A DNA stretch of 64,000 nt from an endosymbiont of Escarpia spicata (lineage in GTDB: Bacteria > Pseudomonadota > Gammaproteobacteria > Chromatiales > Chromatiaceae): NCBI GenBank assembly GCA_003349915.1, contig QFXE01000008.1:62001-126000 (forward strand), written 5' to 3'. Within the stretch, counting starts at the first letter, position 1; each line of letters begins with the position of its first letter. The notes under the pieces are model-generated. The model saw nothing but the letters and a program-made list of their open reading frames with translations. It was not told where the DNA came from and did not search any database. The position numbers were made by a program, and so were the translations under genes. Below are positions 2,775-63,300 of the stretch, in pieces.

Positions 2775-3210
2775 GACGGAACTCCTTGATTTAATAAAGC
2801 GGGTTAAGATAAAGAATGGGGCATTGATGGCTCTATTTCAATGCTTGAGGCGTGCATAAGTGTGAGATTTTACTCGGTTTATACTGACAAATGTCACGAA
2901 AATGACGCGGGGCATTTTTTCGCAGAATGTGCTAGATTTATTATAAGTGTTAGAGAATCGCCGTGTCCTTTGTTTGAGTAAGGCATGGTCGATTCTGACC
3001 GGGTCGCATAGACTCGTTTTCCGGATCCGCCCGCTGCCATTGCTTAGCAGCGGTTCGGTGACTGTTTCGGCCGTCTTCCCGCCACCTCCACTCAACGATT
3101 GAGTGTTCGATCTAGCCACTTCCCCCTGGCTGAAAAATGAACCCTGCGCTTGGTTGGCTTGGGAGGCTGTCCCGTCGGGGCTGCCTATAGTAAGGTGTGT
3201 TGTTGACGAG
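2775..3210. other. Intergenic region between divergent genes
   Basis: About 430 bases separate the SPFH gene (minus strand) from the diguanylate cyclase (plus strand). The part near 2860-2960 is AT-rich and could hold divergent promoters, but I could not fix any -35/-10 pair with confidence. A GTG at 3103 would extend the cyclase by 36 residues into this region. That extra segment has no domain-like character. No other gene is seen. Confidence 0.4.
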
Positions 3211-4527
3211 ATGAAGCGGGTCGAATCCAACAATCAGACTGCAACGATGGTCTCGACTTCGATGCCGGGCGATGCAGAGTGCCGTGGTTTTTTCGACCAT
3301 GCCCCGGATATCCTGCTCACCGTCAGAGAGGATGGGACGATTCGAGAGATCAATCTTTCCGTCGTCGATCTGCTGGGATACAGCAGAGAGGAGTTGATCG
3401 GCTCTTCAGTCTGGCGACTGCTCCACAGGGACGATTTGAAGCGGGTGCGCAGGATGCTGGCCGAAATCTTTCAACGGGAGACCCCCTATTCGGAGATTGA
3501 GTGCCGCAAGATACATAAGAACGGCAAGTCACGCTGGATGAGGACGCGGATCCGTTATCTGCGAAATGGCCCAGGTGAGGAGCCACTGCTCAACATTGTG
3601 AGCCGGGATTTTACCGAGAGGCGGCGGGCGGAAAGCGCGCTGCGTGATAGCGAGGTGCAGCTCCGGCGATTACTGGAATCCACAGGTGCGGCGATAGTGG
3701 CGCTTGACCTTGATGGACGCTGCACTTTTGCCAACCCCTCTGCCGCAGATCTGCTCGGTTACAGAGATCCGTCACAGATGGTTGGCAGCAGCATGAGTCA
3801 GCATCTGCCTGTTAACGGGACAGGTTCCCGTCATGGAGAAAATAGAGGCCGGATCTACGAACCTCTGGATTCAGGTTGTGGGGTTTGTCTCGATGATGGG
3901 CACTTTCTGCGTGCCGGTGGAGAGAGCTTCCCGGTGGAGTACCGCAGTTATCCCATCTTTCACGATGAAACGATTGTCGGTCTTTCCGTCACCTTTTTCG
4001 ACATCACCGAGCGTCTGTCAATACAGCAGCAACTGGTCTATCTTGCAAAGCATGATCACCTGACAGGGCTGCCCAACCGCACACTGTTCATGGATCGGCT
4101 GGAGGCGGGCGTGGCCAGGGCAAAGCGCAGAGAATCCATATTGGCACTACTCTATATCGACCTGGACCGGTTCAAGCCGGTCAATGACCAATATGGGCAT
4201 CATGCAGGGGACCGGTTGTTGCAATCAGTGACCAAGCGGTTTCGTCTTGCCGTGCGGGAGATGGATACAGTTGCCCGTATTGGCGGTGATGAGTTTGCGA
4301 TCATCCTGGAAGATATATCGGAAGCGGAGGATGCGACAGTGGTTTCAAAGAAATTGAATGATCTCATTGCTCCTCCATTCTATCTTGAAAGTGGTGAGAA
4401 ACTGTCCATCGGCATGAGTGTTGGATATGCGCTCTACCCAAACCATGGCGATTGCGAAAGCTTGTTAAGACATGCCGATAGCGCCATGTACCAAGCGAAA
4501 AAAAAGAAATGTTGTGAGTTGGGTTGA
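3211..4527 (+). CDS. PAS-PAS-GGDEF diguanylate cyclase
   Basis: About 438 residues from ATG 3211; an upstream GTG at 3103 would give 474. The order is PAS 1 (about 20-145, with GFFDHAPDILLTV and a PAC end DFTERRRAE), PAS 2 (about 150-275) and a GGDEF domain (about 280-435). The signature GGDEF is at about 358-362, and the inhibitory I-site REMD lies five residues before it, so c-di-GMP synthesis with product feedback is expected. There are no membrane segments, so the ligand is cytosolic. The 3' end runs through eight adenines (4498-4505) and the domain ends abruptly after YQAKKKK. It is the first gene before the ANTAR regulator/kinase pair, 57 bases upstream. Confidence 0.9.
   Translation: MKRVESNNQTATMVSTSMPGDAECRGFFDHAPDILLTVREDGTIREINLSVVDLLGYSREELIGSSVWRLLHRDDLKRVRRMLAEIFQRETPYSEIECRKIHKNGKSRWMRTRIRYLRNGPGEEPLLNIVSRDFTERRRAESALRDSEVQLRRLLESTGAAIVALDLDGRCTFANPSAADLLGYRDPSQMVGSSMSQHLPVNGTGSRHGENRGRIYEPLDSGCGVCLDDGHFLRAGGESFPVEYRSYPIFHDETIVGLSVTFFDITERLSIQQQLVYLAKHDHLTGLPNRTLFMDRLEAGVARAKRRESILALLYIDLDRFKPVNDQYGHHAGDRLLQSVTKRFRLAVREMDTVARIGGDEFAIILEDISEAEDATVVSKKLNDLIAPPFYLESGEKLSIGMSVGYALYPNHGDCESLLRHADSAMYQAKKKKCCELG
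4498..4505 (+). repeat. A8 homopolymer at the 3' end of the diguanylate cyclase
   Basis: Eight adenines, then GAAA, within the last codons of the cyclase. With seven adenines the frame would stay open to a TGA at 4586-4588, overlapping the regulator's ATG (4585) as ATGA. With nine it would stop after a few codons. Confidence 0.8.
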
Positions 4528-4584
4528 TTATGCGGGAGATTTCCCCCGAGTGTTGGATGAAGAATTGATGGGTATGAGTTTGAA

Positions 4585-5226
4585 ATGAAAGAGACACGCT
4601 TACTGTTGGCAGATGATGACGGTGTGGTGTTGGCAACCTTCGGAAAAGGGCTCAGGGATGCGGGTTATGCGGTGATGGAAGCCGATTCTGGGGAGGCGGC
4701 CATTGGTTTGGCGCAAAATGACCGGCCCGATTTGGCCATCCTGGATGTGCGCATGCCGGGTATGTCCGGTGTCGAGGTGGCACAGGAGATGCGTAAAATC
4801 GGTGTTCCGGTGATATTCCTTTCCGCCTATGACGATCGGGAGATCGTCGAATCAGCGGTACTGGAGGGGGCGCTCGGTTATGTGGTGAAGCCCATCGACG
4901 TGCCACGGATGATACCCACCATCGAGGCGGCGCTGGGACGAGCCCAGGAACTGGGAGAGCTGAAGTTGGTCGGTGAGCGCCTGAACCATGCGCTGGATAC
5001 CGGTAATCTGGTCAATGTCGCGGTGGGGTTGATCATGGAGCGTCAGCGTATCAACCGGCAGGAGGCATTTGAGGTCATTCGCTCGCGTGCCCGTTCGCAG
5101 CGCCGCAAGGTGCGTGATGTGGCGTCGGAACTGCTGGAAGCCTGGGATTCACTCCATGAGTTAACCGCTTTCGAGGGGGGGGGGTGGAGCACAAATCCCG
5201 CAAAGGCAGAACATGAAGCCGGTTAA
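4585..5226 (+). CDS. ANTAR-domain response regulator
   Basis: 213 residues. A receiver domain (residues 4-120) has acidic residues D10-D12, phospho-acceptor Asp54 (AILDVRMPGM), a Ser at about 80 and Lys102 in VVKP. An ANTAR RNA-binding domain (about 130-192) follows, with the typical VAVGLIMERQRINRQEAF helix. ANTAR proteins such as NasR, AmiR and EutV act as antiterminators by binding paired hairpins in leader RNAs. The C-terminal tail contains three glycines encoded by a ten-G run. The stop lies 14 bases inside the next gene, a histidine kinase that is presumably its partner. The RNA target is unknown and no obvious double-hairpin leader was found next door. Confidence 0.92.
   Translation: MKETRLLLADDDGVVLATFGKGLRDAGYAVMEADSGEAAIGLAQNDRPDLAILDVRMPGMSGVEVAQEMRKIGVPVIFLSAYDDREIVESAVLEGALGYVVKPIDVPRMIPTIEAALGRAQELGELKLVGERLNHALDTGNLVNVAVGLIMERQRINRQEAFEVIRSRARSQRRKVRDVASELLEAWDSLHELTAFEGGGWSTNPAKAEHEAG
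5175..5184 (+). repeat. G10 homopolymer at the regulator-kinase junction
   Basis: Ten consecutive guanines inside the 3' end of the ANTAR regulator gene, 28 bases before the kinase ATG. Reading each length by hand: G9 opens one continuous frame into the kinase; G10 gives the annotated overlap; G11 ends the regulator at TGA 5214-5216, which forms ATGA with the kinase start at 5213. Confidence 0.9.
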
Positions 5227-7480
5227 GACCCTGGCGGATCTGCTGACCTCGTCGGTGGTGACTGTCAGTCCGGAAACTCCATTGGCTGCTGCCCTGCATA
5301 CTCTGGTGGAGAAAAGAATTAGTTGCCTGGTGGTCAAGGAGGACGACCTGCCAATTGGCATCATCACGGAACGTGATCTGGTGCGGCATGCGTCGTCGGT
5401 AGCTGACATCCAGCGTCATCTGGTCGGTTCTGTAATGAGTAAAGGGTTGGTGACCGCTCAACAAACCCTGGACTATCGCGAAGCGTACGAGTGCTTCGCT
5501 GAAAACCAGATCCGTCATCTGGTTGTGGTGGATGACAGCGGCAGGCTTGCTGGTATCGTTACAGAAACGGATATCATGCGCCACATGGGGCTGGAGCATT
5601 TCCTGCAGTACACGGGACTCTCCAACGTCATGACCCGTAGCGTGGCGACGCTTGGCCCCAAGGTGCCCCTGAATCAGGCAGTTGAACGGATGTCATCGTC
5701 GCGGATCAGCTGCATCGTGGTGGAAGAGGATGGTTTTCCGCTGGGCATGCTCACGGAGAGGGATGCGGTGCGGCTGCTGGATGACGGCATCGATTTCACC
5801 TCGGTCCCTCTGGAGCGGGTGATGGTTTCACCCGTGCATACGGTGGATGTGGGGATCGGCCTCCATGAGGCTTCTGTGCGGATGCAGACGCTGGGTGTTC
5901 GCCGCCTGGTGGTGGTGAATAAGGCGGGCTTGATCGAAGGGCTTGTCACTGAGCACGACGTCGTCAAGGGCGTACACGGGAAATATGTCGAGTTGCTCAA
6001 AGAGGTGATTGCGCGCCAGGCAGGGACGCTGAAGCAGGTTCGCAAACAGCTCAGCGAGAAGACCTTGCTGGACAATCTGCTGCGCTCATCCAGTGATATC
6101 GCTGTCATCTCCACCGACCTCGAATATCAGATCACCTTCTGTAATCAGTTGGCGTCACATCTGCTGGATCTCGGTCAGGCTGATGTCTATGGCCAGAAGC
6201 TGACGGAAGTCCTGGGGCGTTCTGGCATGGAGTCGGGAATCTTTACACACGGCGCCAGGCTGGTTCCGGGTATGGGGAGTTACGACTACCCGATTACCCG
6301 GAAGGGGGAGACTCGGACCGAATACTTTGATGCTCGGGTATTTGGCATCTGGGATGATACCACCCAGCTGGCCGGCTTTGTCTTAACGATGAAGGATATC
6401 ACTGCCAAGCAGCAGGCAGAGATAGCCTTGCGCGAGAGTGAGGCGAGGCTCAACTCCATGTTTCGCAACGCCGCAGCGGGCATGGCGATGGCGGATTTTC
6501 CCGGCGGGCGATTCACCCGGGTCAATCCGGAGTTTTGCCGCATGCTTGGGTATAGCGAAGAGGAGCTACTGACCAAAAGCGTGCTGGATGTGATTTATCC
6601 GGATGACCGGGAAACCTCCCGGACACGCATCAACGATGCACTCAAAGAGCAGATTTCCGGGTATCAGGTGGAAGTTTGCCACCAGCGCAAGGATGGTTCC
6701 CCCATCTGGTGTCTGGTCTCAATGGGATATATTCGTGATGAAGCCGGGACGAAATCATCCGGGGTCGCCCTGCTTCAGGATATCACCGAGAAACGGCGTG
6801 CGGAGCAGCAGCGCCTGGTGCAACAAAATGCCGTGACGCGGGAGGTTCATCACCGCATCAAGAATCACCTGCAGGGCGTTATCGGTCTGCTGCGTGAGCG
6901 TTCTCAGCAACACCCCAACGTGTACGATATTCTCAACGATGCCATCAGTCAGGTTGAGAGTGTGGCGCTGGTTCACGGCCTGCTGGGCAGGCAACAGGAC
7001 CGGGTACTGGATTTTGCTGAGATGCTGGAGAGTATCGTGGCATCCGTTGAGTTTTTGGCGGGTATAGTGATTGAACGCTGCTCAGTTGCAGAACCGGTTC
7101 AGGATTGCCGGGTGGTCGAGGATAAATCGGTTGCCATCGCCCTGGTGATCAATGAACTGCTGGTCAATGCAGTCAAACACTGCGACAAGACGATTTCACC
7201 ACCACCGGTGGCTGTGACGGCCCAATGGCAGGAAGAGAATCGCTTGTTACTTTCGGTCAGCAATCGTGGCTGTCTGCCTGAGGCGTTTGATTTTGTCACT
7301 GGTGTCGGGTTTGGCACCGGGCTGGAACTGGTTAAATCCATGTTGCCAGGCCGGGGTGCCCGGCTCTCCGTTACGCAAGAGGGTGATGTTGTTTTGGCAA
7401 CACTGATGCTTGAGGCTCCGGTGATCAGTCTTCAGCAGAGTTCGCCCGAGTCAGCGGCGGCTGGATCAAATCCTGCATAA
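5213..7480 (+). CDS. Four-CBS, two-PAS HisKA_2 sensor histidine kinase
   Basis: 755 residues with no membrane segment. Two CBS pairs span about residues 5-125 and 135-252, each showing the ITERD/TETD/TERD/TEHD signature ends. PAS 1 is about 285-400 and PAS 2 about 410-530. A HisKA_2 dimerisation domain (about 541-615) has the phospho-acceptor in EVHHRIKNHLQ (His546/547). A compact HATPase with an INELLVNAVKH N-box and a GFGTGLELVKSML G-box ends the protein. CBS pairs usually bind adenosine ligands (AMP, ATP, SAM), so the kinase may read energy or nucleotide state together with PAS cues. HisKA_2 kinases commonly partner ANTAR regulators (as EutW does EutV), and the overlap with the upstream regulator gene supports that here. 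Confidence 0.9.
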   Translation: MKPVKTLADLLTSSVVTVSPETPLAAALHTLVEKRISCLVVKEDDLPIGIITERDLVRHASSVADIQRHLVGSVMSKGLVTAQQTLDYREAYECFAENQIRHLVVVDDSGRLAGIVTETDIMRHMGLEHFLQYTGLSNVMTRSVATLGPKVPLNQAVERMSSSRISCIVVEEDGFPLGMLTERDAVRLLDDGIDFTSVPLERVMVSPVHTVDVGIGLHEASVRMQTLGVRRLVVVNKAGLIEGLVTEHDVVKGVHGKYVELLKEVIARQAGTLKQVRKQLSEKTLLDNLLRSSSDIAVISTDLEYQITFCNQLASHLLDLGQADVYGQKLTEVLGRSGMESGIFTHGARLVPGMGSYDYPITRKGETRTEYFDARVFGIWDDTTQLAGFVLTMKDITAKQQAEIALRESEARLNSMFRNAAAGMAMADFPGGRFTRVNPEFCRMLGYSEEELLTKSVLDVIYPDDRETSRTRINDALKEQISGYQVEVCHQRKDGSPIWCLVSMGYIRDEAGTKSSGVALLQDITEKRRAEQQRLVQQNAVTREVHHRIKNHLQGVIGLLRERSQQHPNVYDILNDAISQVESVALVHGLLGRQQDRVLDFAEMLESIVASVEFLAGIVIERCSVAEPVQDCRVVEDKSVAIALVINELLVNAVKHCDKTISPPPVAVTAQWQEENRLLLSVSNRGCLPEAFDFVTGVGFGTGLELVKSMLPGRGARLSVTQEGDVVLATLMLEAPVISLQQSSPESAAAGSNPA

Positions 7481-7494
7481 CGAAAATGCAGGAC

Positions 7495-7564
7495 GTAGGA
7501 TGCTGGTGAGCCTGCGAACCGCATCATTCGCGATCGATGCGGTTCGTTCCTCACCACATCCTAC
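7495..7564. repeat. Palindromic hairpin repeat, family E
   Basis: A long imperfect inverted repeat bounded by GTAGGATG and CATCCTAC, with inner stems TGGTGAG/CTCACCA and GAACCGCAT/ATGCGGTTC around a short CG-rich loop. It lies between the convergent kinase and tesA genes. It may help end transcription from both sides, though there is no T-run. It looks like a REP-type element distinct from families A-D in this window. Confidence 0.8.
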
Positions 7565-11680: not shown

Positions 11681-12427
11681 ATGACACACTATGCCAAACC
11701 CCCCAAATCCCTGCTGCGCAAAGTCGGCCGCGCGATTGCCGATTACGACATGATTCGCGAGGGAGACCGGATACTCCTTGGCGTTTCCGGCGGCAAGGAT
11801 TCTCTCTCCCTGTTGCAGATCCTGAGTCACCTGCAGACCTATGCGCCGGTTAAGTTCGAGCTGGGCGTCATCACTGTCGATCCCGAGGTAGAGGGTTTCG
11901 ATCCCGAGCCGCTGAAAGCCTATTATGAAAACCTGGGTGTATCCTGGATCTATGCAGAGCAGCCGATCATGGAAGAGGCCAGGACACGTCTGGATGGCGA
12001 CTCATTCTGTGCCTACTGCGCCCGCATGAAGCGGGGCATCATGTACTCCACCTGTCGCCGTGAGGGCTATAATGTATTGGCACTGGCTCAGCATCTCGAT
12101 GACCTGGCGGAGAGTCTCATGATGTCGATCTTCCACGGCGGACAGTTACGTACCATGAAGGCGCACTATCAGAATAATGATGGCGATATCCGCATCATCC
12201 GCCCGCTGGTCTATTGCCGCGAGAGTCAGACCGGGGCCTTCGCCCTGGAGGCTGGACTGCCTGTGATCCCCGACAGTTGCCCCGCCTGCTTTACGGCACC
12301 CACCCAACGCGCCTATATGAAGCAGTTGCTGGCAAAAGAGGAGCGGCAGAACAAACATCTGTTTGCCAATATGTTGCATGCCATGAAACCCCTGATGGAC
12401 GAGCGCCCGGATCAAGCTGACCCATGA
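11681..12427 (+). CDS. TtcA-like PP-loop thiolase, divergent
   Basis: 248 residues from ATG 11681; the frame is open upstream but without TtcA-like sequence. The PP-loop SGGKDS is at 36-41. A CxxC pair (Cys110/Cys113 in FCAYCARMKRGIMYSTC) corresponds to the [4Fe-4S] cysteines of TtcA, the enzyme that makes 2-thiocytidine at tRNA position 32. The third ligand region reads PDSCPACF (Cys200, Cys203) rather than the usual IPCNLCGSQ-type sequence, and the protein is about 60 residues shorter than E. coli TtcA. It is coupled by an ATGA overlap to a CBS protein and then a permease, which is unusual for a tRNA enzyme. It may act on tRNA or on another thiolation substrate. Confidence 0.8.
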   Translation: MTHYAKPPKSLLRKVGRAIADYDMIREGDRILLGVSGGKDSLSLLQILSHLQTYAPVKFELGVITVDPEVEGFDPEPLKAYYENLGVSWIYAEQPIMEEARTRLDGDSFCAYCARMKRGIMYSTCRREGYNVLALAQHLDDLAESLMMSIFHGGQLRTMKAHYQNNDGDIRIIRPLVYCRESQTGAFALEAGLPVIPDSCPACFTAPTQRAYMKQLLAKEERQNKHLFANMLHAMKPLMDERPDQADP

Positions 12428-12876
12428 ACCTGGAAGAGATCCTGATCCCGACGGAAGTGGCCCATATCGGCATGAGCTTCGGCGATGCCCTGGAAGAGTG
12501 TGTAAAACGGAATGTGCCGGGCATTCCCTATGTGGATGCACAGGGCAAGATCGTCGGCCGTTTTTCCCTGCGGCATGCGTTTCGCCTCTCCTGTGTGCCC
12601 CGGGACTATATTCAGGGTGCGCACCTGCTGGGTGATGATCTCGACTACATGGATATGGCCGAGGAGAAAGCGGAAAGGATTCTGCCGCTACCTGTCGAAG
12701 GTTATGTGCTGGATGATGCCATCCAGCTCAATCCCGGCGCGCAGGTAATGAAGGCGCTGGCGATCATGGAGCAGTTCAATACCGGCTATCTGTTTCTGAC
12801 TGACGGGGATGAGTACAAAGGGGTTATTACCCGGGTGGGGATTGCCCGCCTGGTGCTGAATCTGGGCTGCTGCTGA
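12424..12876 (+). CDS. CBS-pair protein
   Basis: 150 residues made of two CBS motifs (about 5-60 and 85-148). The first has IPYVDAQGKIVGRFSLRHAFR and the second YLFLTDGDEYKGVITRVGIAR. Stand-alone CBS pairs usually bind adenosyl ligands and gate a partner protein. The start overlaps the TtcA-like stop (ATGA) and the stop is three bases from the permease start, so the three are one translational unit. A regulatory role for the permease is the simplest reading. A paralogous, frameshifted CBS gene precedes the second permease at 39530. Confidence 0.85.
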   Translation: MNLEEILIPTEVAHIGMSFGDALEECVKRNVPGIPYVDAQGKIVGRFSLRHAFRLSCVPRDYIQGAHLLGDDLDYMDMAEEKAERILPLPVEGYVLDDAIQLNPGAQVMKALAIMEQFNTGYLFLTDGDEYKGVITRVGIARLVLNLGCC

Positions 12877-60310: not shown

Positions 60311-63300
60311 ATGGTTGAGATGAAACGAGTCTGGCGTTGGCCTGCCGGTGTGGCGGCCATGCTTTTGTTGTTGGTTATAGGTTTGATGCTGACGGCCTCT
60401 TTCTGGCTGAATGTCAATCGTGACCTCCTGGCTGCCAGACTCAGTGAAACCCTTGGGCGTGAGGTCAGCCTGAATGGTGAACTTGCACTGGGTCTATCCC
60501 TTCATCCCACTCTGGTGGCTGAAAACATATCCATTGCCAATCCTGCCTGGGCATCCAGGGCTAACCTGCTGAAACTGAAGAAGCTGGAACTGCAACTGTC
60601 ACTGCTGCCCCTGTTAAATGGTGAGCTGGTGGTCAAGCGACTGCTGCTTCAGGGTGGCGACCTGATGCTGGAGTCCACTGAGAAACAGGGTGGCAACTGG
60701 AGATTTGCCGGCGGAAAGGCGGCGGAAACCTCTGCTGTTCCCAGTGAAATGCGGCTGCCGGTGATAGATAAACTGCAGTTGGAGGAGTTGCGGCTGGGAT
60801 ACCAGGGTGGTGGAGCCACGCCGAAGATATTGCGGGTAAAGCGCGCCGAAGCCAGTCTCTCAGCAACAGGGGAATTGCAGGCGACCGGCGGGTTTGATTA
60901 TCACTCGGTAGATCTGTTGGGGCGTTTCAGCGGTTTGATCACTGCGGCAGGTATCTCAAATGCCCGTCTCGATTTGAAGACTGAACAGAACGAGCTTCAT
61001 GCCGAGTTGAAAGGTGAGCAGGTGGCATGGAAAGTGACTGCCAACTCGAGCGATGAACTGTCGCGCTTGATTGGTGCTTACCTGCCGGAAGGCGCCTCTG
61101 CCGACTTGCAGGGTGCGAGTCGTTTGACCGGGTCGGGCGTGCAGTTCTTCGACCTGAAGGGTTGGCTTCGAAATCTCTATGGTTTCGATGAGTTCACTGT
61201 TGCCGATGGCAGTGTGAAGGTTACAGGTGGCCGGGTCGAGGTTGACTTGAACGGTCTGCTCGAACAGCGTGAAACCAGACTGCAGTTCTCTCTGGGGGAG
61301 GATCAACAGCCTTTTGCTGAAGCGGCAAACTGGCCGCTGGAGGCCGGGGCGCAGACGGACAGTGATCGATTGACGGTGACAGGGGCGATAATACCGGGCG
61401 ACAAAACGGTCACCAACCTGACCATCAGGCTTGAAGGTAAAGAGTTGTCACATCTGCCGTTGCTGAAGGGAAACCTGCGCAAGACTGGTGCCTTCCAAAT
61501 TGAGGGCCAGATGTCTGCGGAGGGGTCACAGGTGGCGTTTACAGGGATTAACGCCAAGTTCGGTGGCAGTGATATCTCCGGGGCGTTGACCCTGCATCTG
61601 GATCAGGTGGTCACCCGCATTCAGGGCGGACTGCAGGCGAAACGGCTCGATCTTGCGCCATTTTTCAGCCCGAAGCCGAAACCACGAAAAGTGCAGGCCG
61701 GGACGAAAAAGGCGCCTCAGAAAAACCTGCTCGACATGCCGCTGGAGGTGTCCTGGCCTGAGTCGTTGGCGCTGGACCTGAAGCTCTCGGCCAAGCAGGT
61801 CGCTGGGCTGGCTCTGCCACTTCAAAAGCTCAAAGGGCGTCTGAAGATTGATGGCAAAACAGTCGGGATTGGAGAATTGCAGTTGCGCCTGGATGGTGTG
61901 CCTCTCCGGGGTGGTCTGCAGATGAAAAATGGTGAGAGGCTGACCGCTGATCTGACCAGCGGCCCCGTCGCACTTGAAAAAATCGCCGCCCGGTTGGGGA
62001 TGGATGAGAACCTGGGCGGAGATCTGCAACAGATACAGCTGCGTTTTGCCGGTAACGGTGGAACCCTGGGAGAGTTGTTGGCGCAGGGAGAGCTTCGGAT
62101 TGAAACGTCGGCGGGACATATCGTATTTGGAAAGGCAGACGGTTCGACTCCCTTGGATTTTGCAATCAGCCGTTTGCAATTCGCTTCTCTGAATGGACAA
62201 AACGTGACGCTGAATGCAGAAGGCGGGTTGCGGAGTGAATCCTTCAATGTACAGGTGACAGGCCCAGAATTGACTGCGCTGGTGCAGGAAAAACCTTCTC
62301 TGCCGGTTTCAACAAAACTCACCTTGGGGAAAACGGAAGGCTCGCTGTCACTGCATCTGGACGGAGCCTCCGGCAAGCTCAAAGGCCCCCTGTCTTTTTT
62401 GATCCACTGTCCTTCGCTGCAAACACTGTCGAAGCTGACGGGAGTGGCGCTGCCGGAAACCCCGGCCTATCGGCTTGAAGGTGAAGCGATGGCCTCGAAG
62501 GAGCGGGTGGTGTTTTCCAAACTCCTGGCAGAAGCCGGCAAGAGCAGGATAGTCGGTGACCTGCAGATCGGTTTGCAGGGCGACAGGCCTGATATACGGG
62601 GAGCGCTGCGCGCCGAGATCATTGATCTTGCAGATCTACAGCCATTTTTTGCGGGAGAGGCACAACCTCAGGAGGATTTGTCGGAAAGCGATTGGCTGTT
62701 TTCGGGGCATTCGCTGCAGCTCTCTTTGTTGACTCAATTAGACATGAATCTGCAGCTGAAGTTGCCAAAACTGGTACATCGCAACGCCCCGGTGGGTAGC
62801 ATGCATGCATCCGTGGACCTCAGAGCAGGTGAACTGCACCTAAACCCCGTCGTTTTAAAACTGGATAGCGGAGGTAGCTTAAATGCCACTGCAAGCGCCA
62901 ATGCAGCTACAACACCGCCGCAATTGGCTCTGCAACTAAAAGTCAGCGGGTTTGACTATGGTGTTCTGTTGGAAAGGCTGGATGTTACACAGGATGTGGA
63001 TGGCAGTGCCGATTTCTCGATGGATATTTCCGGGTCGGGATGGAGTCTGCGTGAGGTGGCGGCAGGGTTGGATGGTCACCTGGTGCTGGTGGGTGGTAAG
63101 GGGCGTATCAAAAATCAGGATCTGCCCTTCAAACTTAAAGACTTTGTGGGAACCCTGTTACCTCAAATGGGGCTCAAAGATGAACCGGTGATTGATCTCA
63201 ACTGCCTGGTTGACCGGCTCGATTTCAACAAGGGGGTTGGATACAGCCGCAGCATGTTGATCGATACCACGAAGTTGACCATTGCGGGTGCTGGGGAGAT

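Follow-up and report, generated by a model that had tools for sequence, protein, structure and literature searches.

The 64,000-nucleotide stretch of DNA considered here (hereafter the window; positions 62,001 to 126,000 of contig QFXE01000008.1, assembly GCA_003349915.1) is part of contig C18 in the 4.06 Mb genome (G000) of an endosymbiont of the tubeworm Escarpia spicata, and carries on its forward strand a three-gene operon that couples a predicted two-component system to a predicted diguanylate cyclase. The operon consists of a PAS-PAS-GGDEF diguanylate cyclase (DGC; 3211..4527), a response regulator with REC and ANTAR domains (RR; 4585..5226), assigned by Pfam, tree and residues to a clade that we term ANTAR-II, and a histidine kinase (HK; 5213..7480) with the Pfam layout CBS-CBS-CBS-CBS-PAS-PAS-HisKA_2-HATPase. 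Open reading frames and Pfam matches agree on this trio, as the first-pass annotation had described it. The DGC and RR genes are separated by 57 bp, and the RR and HK genes overlap by 14 bp. Its closest named relatives live as endosymbionts in the tubeworms Lamellibrachia and Escarpia, and the order DGC-RR-HK-tesA-lolD-ftsX is retained at all four of their loci (L021–L024). In the genus set of five genomes (G001–G005) the end of DGC, RR, HK, tesA and lolD are visible as far as the loci L007–L011 reach. The ratios of non-synonymous to synonymous substitution rates (dN/dS) against L021–L024 are 0.18–0.25 for DGC, 0.07–0.10 for RR (to residue 196) and 0.19–0.25 for HK (to residue 742); all three genes are under purifying selection in the tubeworm symbionts.

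The sensor part of the kinase begins with four CBS units (5231..5980; Pfam 5.6e-47), as had been claimed from the sequence. The motif G-h-h-T-E-x-D lies at residues 49, 114, 178 and 243 and matches G-h-h-T/S-x-x-D, which we take to be the CBS ribose motif; it is present in 4/4 units in the window and likewise in all four named relatives, and sensing of a nucleotide by these units is plausible from the motif. Two PAS domains follow (6107..6802), the second a strong Pfam match and the first a weaker one. The HisKA_2 dimerisation and phospho-acceptor domain and the HATPase (6842..7372; Pfam, tree) complete the protein: HisKA_2 scores above its cut-off (2.9e-13), and HATPase_c (2.1e-4), with 22.2 bits, falls short of the required 26.4. 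The motifs HHRIKNH, the phospho-acceptor, and NELLVNAVKH are recognisable by eye. The kinase is thus of the HisKA_2 type, has a phospho-acceptor motif and adjoins the RR gene; phosphotransfer between the two is predicted. AlphaFold models were too poor to be used (predicted local distance difference test score 53 for the CBS region and 52 for RR).

The first gene matches Pfam GGDEF at 9.4e-45 and contains two PAS stretches. Its GGDEF motif reads as intact, here and in L021–L024, with an RxxD I-site upstream, and the product is a predicted diguanylate cyclase. A longer reading frame starting within 3103–3210 is argued against by single-base indels between the relatives. The leader upstream of DGC (2800..3210, forward strand) is conserved beyond four-fold degenerate sites and may be a regulatory region. 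Its p-distance to the four relatives is 0.053–0.092, against 0.130–0.188 at the four-fold sites of HK and 0.076–0.139 at those of DGC, that is, 0.37–0.49 and 0.50–0.83 times the respective divergence. No covarying hairpin was found in it, and none of the 128 predicted pairs showed a compensatory change among the four relatives. Terminator-like sites in the operon number two against 4.0 expected. The leader would be the natural place to seek a target of the operon's regulator.

The regulator matches Pfam Response_reg at 1.5e-25 and ANTAR at 5.4e-14 (52.1 bits, cut-off 27.3). The REC residues D11, D12, D54, S80 and K102 are invariant across five sequences, so that the protein qualifies as a REC-ANTAR regulator. 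In its ANTAR domain (4975..5136, forward strand) the residues R142, K143, K147, Y164 and M172, named for RNA binding in PMC8934654, are G, N, V, F and R, identically in the four named relatives, so that only the aromatic character at Y164 is retained. We numbered the positions ourselves, taking the chain index minus 2, and the result agrees with that paper for Y164 and M172. To this list we added the lysine of the AKG motif (numbered 149 here), which is V in the window. The 3' end of the RR gene contains a run of ten G (5175–5184), outside the ANTAR domain, where slippage or a sequencing matter is possible; the RR tail in the window differs from that of the four named relatives, in which RR ends at the kinase start.

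An ANTAR domain is present in 85 of the 210 genomes of the order. All 30 best matches read as canonical (AKG..AM or SM), and 20 of them (L124–L143), with 4–11 kb of context, formed our canonical set, NasR/NasT-like by their leaders. Sixty lower-scoring stretches (L064–L123, roughly E 1e-16 to 1e-9; weaker and a few in-range matches were excluded) formed the order ANTAR-II set. In a tree of the regulators made by a quick method, the 20 canonical sequences and L096 are split from the other 89 by a branch of length 1.36, with a Shimodaira–Hasegawa-like approximate likelihood ratio (SH-aLRT) support of 94, just under the support mark. L096 keeps AKS..AM on a very long branch and is an odd row. The six positions read R, K, [RK], K, [YF], M in 20/20 canonical regulators. 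Among the 63 non-canonical sequences on the order side, L096 included, R142 is changed in every one and K147 is basic in none; K143 has given way to R in 38, is kept in nine and is another residue in 16; the AKG lysine has become V or I in 60 and T in two, and stays K in one (L096); Y164 is F in 52, Y in five and other in six; M172 is R in 61, Q in one and M in one (L096).

The clade extends beyond the order. Searched with the ANTAR-II alignment, a sample of 369 genomes of the class gave matches in 92 at E 1e-6. The strong matches (2.5e-15 or better) came from 24 genomes with 17 family codes and were ANTAR-II wherever the locus was read; of six weaker matches that were read five were AKG..AM and one AKG without AM. 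From 19 of 22 strong genomes (G000 and G012 set aside) we took 20 class loci. All 21 class ANTAR-II sequences outside the order have R at M172, R at K143 and V or I at the AKG lysine. In the ANTAR domains of known structure only two of the six positions are steady, K at the AKG position (5/5) and M at position 172 (4/5), and both are changed in ANTAR-II. The clade also has a well-kept basic stretch of its own, A-R-S-x-R-R-K. By our own count, EutV R142 corresponds to R340 of NasR, a change of which abolished binding according to PMC7496416. The third ANTAR gene of the genome (L005, 7335–7955, reverse strand, 31 bits) has by eye Arg at the M172 position and adjoins a two-CBS protein (6631–7218, reverse strand) near c-type cytochrome-like and sulfide dehydrogenase-like genes.

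To our knowledge, the ANTAR systems characterised so far work through a single RNA motif, usually at nitrogen, ethanolamine and amide genes, and the first-pass annotation had suggested antitermination at tandem hexaloop hairpins here. We looked for dual hexaloops with A1 and G4 (stem of 5 or more, spacing to 40). The scan gave nine matches at 7/20 canonical loci and none at the 60 order ANTAR-II loci, in 20 arbitrary windows, at six genus loci, in the window itself or at L226–L229; among the 20 class ANTAR-II loci there were two matches (L198 and L202). The P2 pattern of the canonical leader hairpin, GGACANNGG[CT]GTCC, occurred at 12/20 canonical, 0/60 order ANTAR-II, 0/20 arbitrary and 1/20 class loci (L212). 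Since a stricter hexaloop scan was insensitive (1/20 canonical, 1/20 arbitrary, 1/20 class, 0/60 order ANTAR-II), the argument rests on the dual-hexaloop and P2 scans. A covariance model, R1, was built from eight canonical leaders, with 150 of about 300–900 candidates scored per genome. It found nothing significant in G000–G005 (best 16.0–19.1 bits, E 0.26 or more), and in G000, where a genome-wide search for tandem hexaloops had been proposed, there were five weak matches, the best of 17.5 bits with E 0.62. Its sensitivity is limited: six genomes with canonical ANTAR genes were searched, four of them in the training set, and of the other two G139 was found (32.3 bits) and G077 missed (18.0 bits). 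Four ANTAR-II-only genomes scored at most 20.2 bits. With most EutV contacts changed and no dual hexaloop at the 60 order loci, hexaloop antitermination by ANTAR-II is not supported; the sensitivity is limited and the contrast with canonical loci is clear. Nor was there a hairpin loop common to all ANTAR-II gaps, in which no loop was seen more than three times.

The supposed link to c-di-GMP turned out to recur in the clade. A GGDEF gene lies within 1.5 kb of 44/62 order ANTAR-II genes and 9/21 in the rest of the class, against 1/20 canonical ANTAR genes and 1/20 arbitrary windows; within 4 kb the counts are 45/62, 13/21, 3/20 and 2/20. For these counts we left out L096 and two short loci, L015 and L017, and entered the genus operon once (L021); 15/104 rows have less than 1.5 kb of sequence on one side, and the arbitrary windows, 20 from 10 genomes, were measured from their centre with a 300-base margin. 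After clustering at 50, 60 and 70% identity (majority per cluster, Fisher's test) the GGDEF difference has p values of 0.033, 0.0089 and 0.00014. The 53 close pairs comprise 26 GGDEF genes downstream and 18 upstream on the same strand and nine on the opposite strand. Among 56 linked proteins, four genus copies included, crude patterns detected GG[DE]EF in 44 and an EAL signature in 22. Association with c-di-GMP genes is a general trait of the ANTAR-II clade. At seven loci (L080, L081, L082, L104, L107, L121 and L123) an ANTAR-II gene stands beside a GGDEF protein of 342–350 aa (GGEEF in 6/7) with no adjacent HisKA_2 kinase; the neighbours at L080–L082 look by eye prfA/hemK- or gatB-like, and ANTAR-II there comes with its own cyclase.

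Relatives of the kinase also sit beside ANTAR genes; that they never do so had been named as a finding that would refute the proposal. A HisKA_2 gene lies within 500 bp of 21/62 order ANTAR-II genes and 11/21 in the rest of the class (32/83 together), against 0/20 canonical genes. Their sensors vary: by Pfam, ten ANTAR-paired kinases comprise five with GAF and PAS, three with PAS only and two with CBS and PAS. Full-length searches with HK in overlapping sets of 55, 210 and 369 genomes (at most 19, five and two candidates scored per genome) gave matches confined to the genus, in six genomes of the first two sets and in the own genome of the third. A restriction of the architecture to the genus was refuted by L067, L068 and L086 of another genus of the family (g8), which were recovered later through their ANTAR neighbours and encode a kinase with four CBS units, several PAS domains and HisKA_2, then REC-ANTAR, then GGDEF-EAL. 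Our own hidden Markov model counts four CBS units in each; Pfam passes two in L067 and three in L068, and L086 was outside the Pfam scan. The domain order had been put forward as undescribed: the literature searched holds no description of it, yet it is not peculiar to the window, since it recurs in these three genomes. Among 38 HisKA_2 cores placed on a tree, the eight with four CBS units occupy two places, and a one-clade tree is rejected (approximately unbiased test, p 0.0043). Three of the rows stand on long branches, and 13/34 inner branches are open. Most simply, the four-CBS sensor appears to have been joined to ANTAR-paired kinases twice, by apparently separate fusions; swapping of sensors between kinases is also possible. 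Proteins of the same family and class share the N-terminal CBS and PAS layout (30–46% identity over the matched part), but their outputs are by eye GGDEF-EAL or other kinases, unlike HK, and no ANTAR gene was present at their 13 short loci (3–5 kb each). In G226, contig C96 (L031, L078) carries a four-CBS hybrid kinase and an ANTAR-II gene some 5.4 kb apart, perhaps another CBS-ANTAR association.

A candidate RNA element was found at the sister locus. The second ANTAR-II pair of G000 (C2; L004) consists of a PAS and HisKA_2 kinase and RR, followed by a chemoreceptor-like gene. In five genomes of the genus the first 150 nt or so after RR have diverged (1–8 of 22–30 columns identical per block); the 180 columns that follow are conserved (20–27 of 30), with conservation continuing at 22–25 of 30 towards the next gene. 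The conserved part contains two copies of GGCCNNRMMC(N)GYC, 52–53 nt apart, and the same paired motif, 53–56 nt apart, lies between RR and GGDEF-EAL in L067, L068 and L086. The paired pattern thus occurs at 8/10 C2-type loci (5/5 genus C2 loci and 3/60 in the order) and at 0/20 canonical, 0/20 arbitrary, 0/20 class and 0/4 window-type loci, and is absent from the 64 kb window. Because the downstream genes differ, the element travels with RR rather than with one target gene. The first copy forms a hairpin of 6–8 pairs with the loop CNNGMMCY: 95.3% of its cells pair, against 50–55% in slid controls, 4/8 stem pairs are changed on both sides, and the covariation score was reached by 1/500 shuffles. 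The second copy is a weak hairpin of 3–4 pairs with a loop of 8–9. G4 of the loop is kept in 8/8 first and 7/8 second copies.

A model of the element, R2, recovered in 210 genomes the eight training-set elements at 67.6–90.7 bits and then nothing above 22.8 (21 candidates scored per genome); G001, a genus member in which no C2-type RR was detected, has no match. Rfam 15 at the gathering threshold gave no match for the candidate element in nine loci, and on the window, L004 and L005 only two tRNAs. With a looser pattern, matches fall in coding DNA too, such as lolD next to the operon of the window. A scan for 10-nt loops with one mismatch allowed did no better than the controls (per 100 kb strand, 3.58 for order ANTAR-II, 4.32 for class, 6.75 for canonical, 4.56 for arbitrary and 8.54 for genus loci), and only the stricter paired motif separated the sets. 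No conserved block was present in the gaps of two other ANTAR-II groups. From its place, pairing and kept G we tentatively suggest that the element is bound by ANTAR-II, a possibility for which we see somewhat less than an even chance.

Known systems resemble the operon in part. In EutW-EutV of Enterococcus faecalis a REC-ANTAR regulator also has a cognate kinase, and among PDB entries EutV (6wsh) matches the window RR second best; it differs in having R142, K143, K147, Y164 and M172 where the window has G, N, V, F and R, and the window RR has a GGDEF neighbour and no hexaloop leader that we could find. The mycobacterial PdtaS-PdtaR pair likewise combines a kinase, of the HisKA_2 type, with a REC-ANTAR protein, Rv1626 (1s8n), the best PDB match to the window RR (E 9e-29), which reads R, K, R, K, F and M at the six positions, unlike the window RR. 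PdtaS differs from HK in its GAF-PAS sensor, and the two genes are separate (PMC11537054). The canonical regulators of the same order share the ANTAR domain and differ in their six residues, their P2 leader hairpin and the absence of a HisKA_2 gene beside them (0/20). In listings of open-licence papers on ANTAR with CBS kinases, on GGDEF and c-di-GMP, on PdtaS and on Endoriftia two-component systems the module is not named. Hexaloop RNAs have been tied to nitrogen genes (PMC3369931), and the word GGDEF is absent from the main text of that paper. The method of PMC8164766 demands hexanucleotide loops, and a search of that type would therefore be blind to 8-nt loops. An ANTAR domain by itself does not predict hexaloop antitermination.

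We consider it probable, if only just, that the trio is the local form of a two-component module of gammaproteobacteria: a HisKA_2 kinase, whose sensor is interchangeable, phosphorylates an ANTAR-II regulator, and this regulator acts together with c-di-GMP enzymes. We propose the following mechanism. The sensor would be the four CBS units, probably nucleotide-binding, and the two PAS domains; binding of a ligand would change autophosphorylation of the HisKA_2 histidine, the phosphate would pass to Asp54 of RR, and RR would dimerise. The ANTAR-II domain may then bind an RNA stem-loop of another kind than the canonical A1-G4 hexaloop; this stem-loop would lie in a leader close to the linked gene, and its binding would alter expression of a c-di-GMP (or chemotaxis) gene. 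Phosphotransfer, RNA binding, the identity of the ligand, the direction of control and the use of the covarying sister-locus element as the target class are what we infer. If the account is true, an ANTAR-II branch over 17 sampled families, whose RNA-binding face is changed and which is regularly linked to c-di-GMP genes, would join RNA-level control to c-di-GMP signalling.

We speculate further, though we hold this rather doubtful, that ANTAR-II is a branch of ANTAR whose reading of RNA has been remodelled and which is tied to genes for c-di-GMP and chemotaxis. With M172 turned into Arg and the AKG lysine into Val or Ile, it would read not hexaloops but paired stem-loops with a loop of 8–9 nt (C1-x-x-G4-x-x-C7, closed by C-G), in two copies 52–56 nt apart, and CBS nucleotide sensors would have been joined to its kinases at least twice. 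A role of Met172 in setting loop size has been suggested in PMC8934654; if the extended reading is true, position 172 is predicted to help set loop size, and a defined candidate RNA is on offer.

Several observations count against these proposals. At the six positions AmiR, a known antiterminator acting on a hexaloop leader, has Q, A, Q, K, H and M, and PAL has R, S, Q, K, F and S. Changed contacts alone thus do not rule out hexaloop binding, since both proteins also lack several EutV contacts, and by sequence the contact set is a feature of the EutV type that is not general to ANTAR domains. At L202 (G355, a class ANTAR-II locus) three strong hairpins stand directly after the RR gene (3886–3969), two of them, of 9 and 7 bp, with the loops AGGGAC and AGGGAA, where an ANTAR-II protein may have a target of the canonical type; loops with GGA of the CsrA type were considered, for this one locus only. 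The C2 element is confined to C2-type loci, in a single copy; L065 has one copy of the motif, and L084 and the sister L091 have none. It was found by inspecting gaps, the pattern was written from it, and the controls were made afterwards. Neither a hexaloop pair nor the C2 element occurs in the window operon, and the two single A1-G4 hexaloops of the DGC leader, at 3097 and 3182 with five pairs each, are not conserved in that form among the relatives: in our reading of the alignment the first keeps 4/5 pairs in L023 and L024 and is broken in L021 and L022, and the loop of the second is shorter in the relatives. The HisKA_2 difference has p values of 0.54, 0.077 and 0.0063 after clustering at 50, 60 and 70% and so is not significant at the first two; the genomes are rich in GGDEF genes; and 12/56 linked GGDEF proteins have no GG[DE]EF readable by the crude pattern. 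Finally, the g8 kinases of L067, L068 and L086 have the ribose motif in just one, three and two of their four CBS units.

Four other explanations were weighed. The c-di-GMP might be an input, made by the linked cyclase and sensed by the kinase, with the ANTAR output acting elsewhere. Such an arrangement is compatible with the module proposed above, and we think it somewhat unlikely. PMC11537054 reports that PdtaS, whose partner PdtaR is a REC-ANTAR protein, senses c-di-GMP via its GAF domain, and the linked genes are GGDEF or GGDEF-EAL in several arrangements. By Pfam, however, the window kinase has no GAF domain, binding of c-di-GMP by CBS units is putative, and the sensors vary among the ten ANTAR-paired kinases.

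Ordinary hexaloop antitermination at a distant target missed by the scans is unlikely, in our view. The REC and ANTAR folds match Pfam; Y164 is F in most ANTAR-II sequences and K143 is R in 38/63 and 21/21; and R1 detected only one of the two canonical genomes outside its training set. Because AmiR and PAL likewise do without several EutV contacts, and because of the strong hexaloop pair after the ANTAR-II gene of L202, we raised our estimate for this explanation and lowered those for the module and for the reading of 8–9 nt loops. Set against it are the scans, in which the dual hexaloop was seen at 0/60 order ANTAR-II and 7/20 canonical loci and the P2 pattern at 0/60 and 12/20, the insignificant best R1 match in G000, and the change of R142, K147, M172 and the AKG lysine in nearly all ANTAR-II sequences.

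The changed contact residues and the linkage to an enzyme gene would also be expected if ANTAR-II no longer bound RNA and acted by contact with other proteins, for instance the linked cyclase. This too we regard as improbable, given the clade's well-kept basic stretch and the covarying RNA element that adjoins C2-type regulators; the dN/dS of RR, 0.07–0.10, is compatible with either output. That the GGDEF neighbours are passive and the linkage means little, these genes being so common, is very unlikely: genomes hold many of them, clustering at 50% leaves a p of 0.033 only and the arbitrary control is limited to 20 windows from 10 genomes, but just 1/20 arbitrary windows and 1/20 canonical ANTAR genes have such a neighbour, and the linkage comes in several orientations and is seen outside the order (9/21).

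Some further features were noted around the operon. In the gap between the kinase and tesA (7494–7562) the window and L022 share a long palindrome that L021 and L024 do not have, possibly a small mobile palindrome. Intergenic repeats of the form GTCGGGTTACG..TAACCCGAC, read by eye at 1–150 and 1370–1440, flank the upstream genes. A short protein is encoded before a transporter-like gene at 12424–12876, and its counterpart at the loci of the named relatives is a two-CBS protein.

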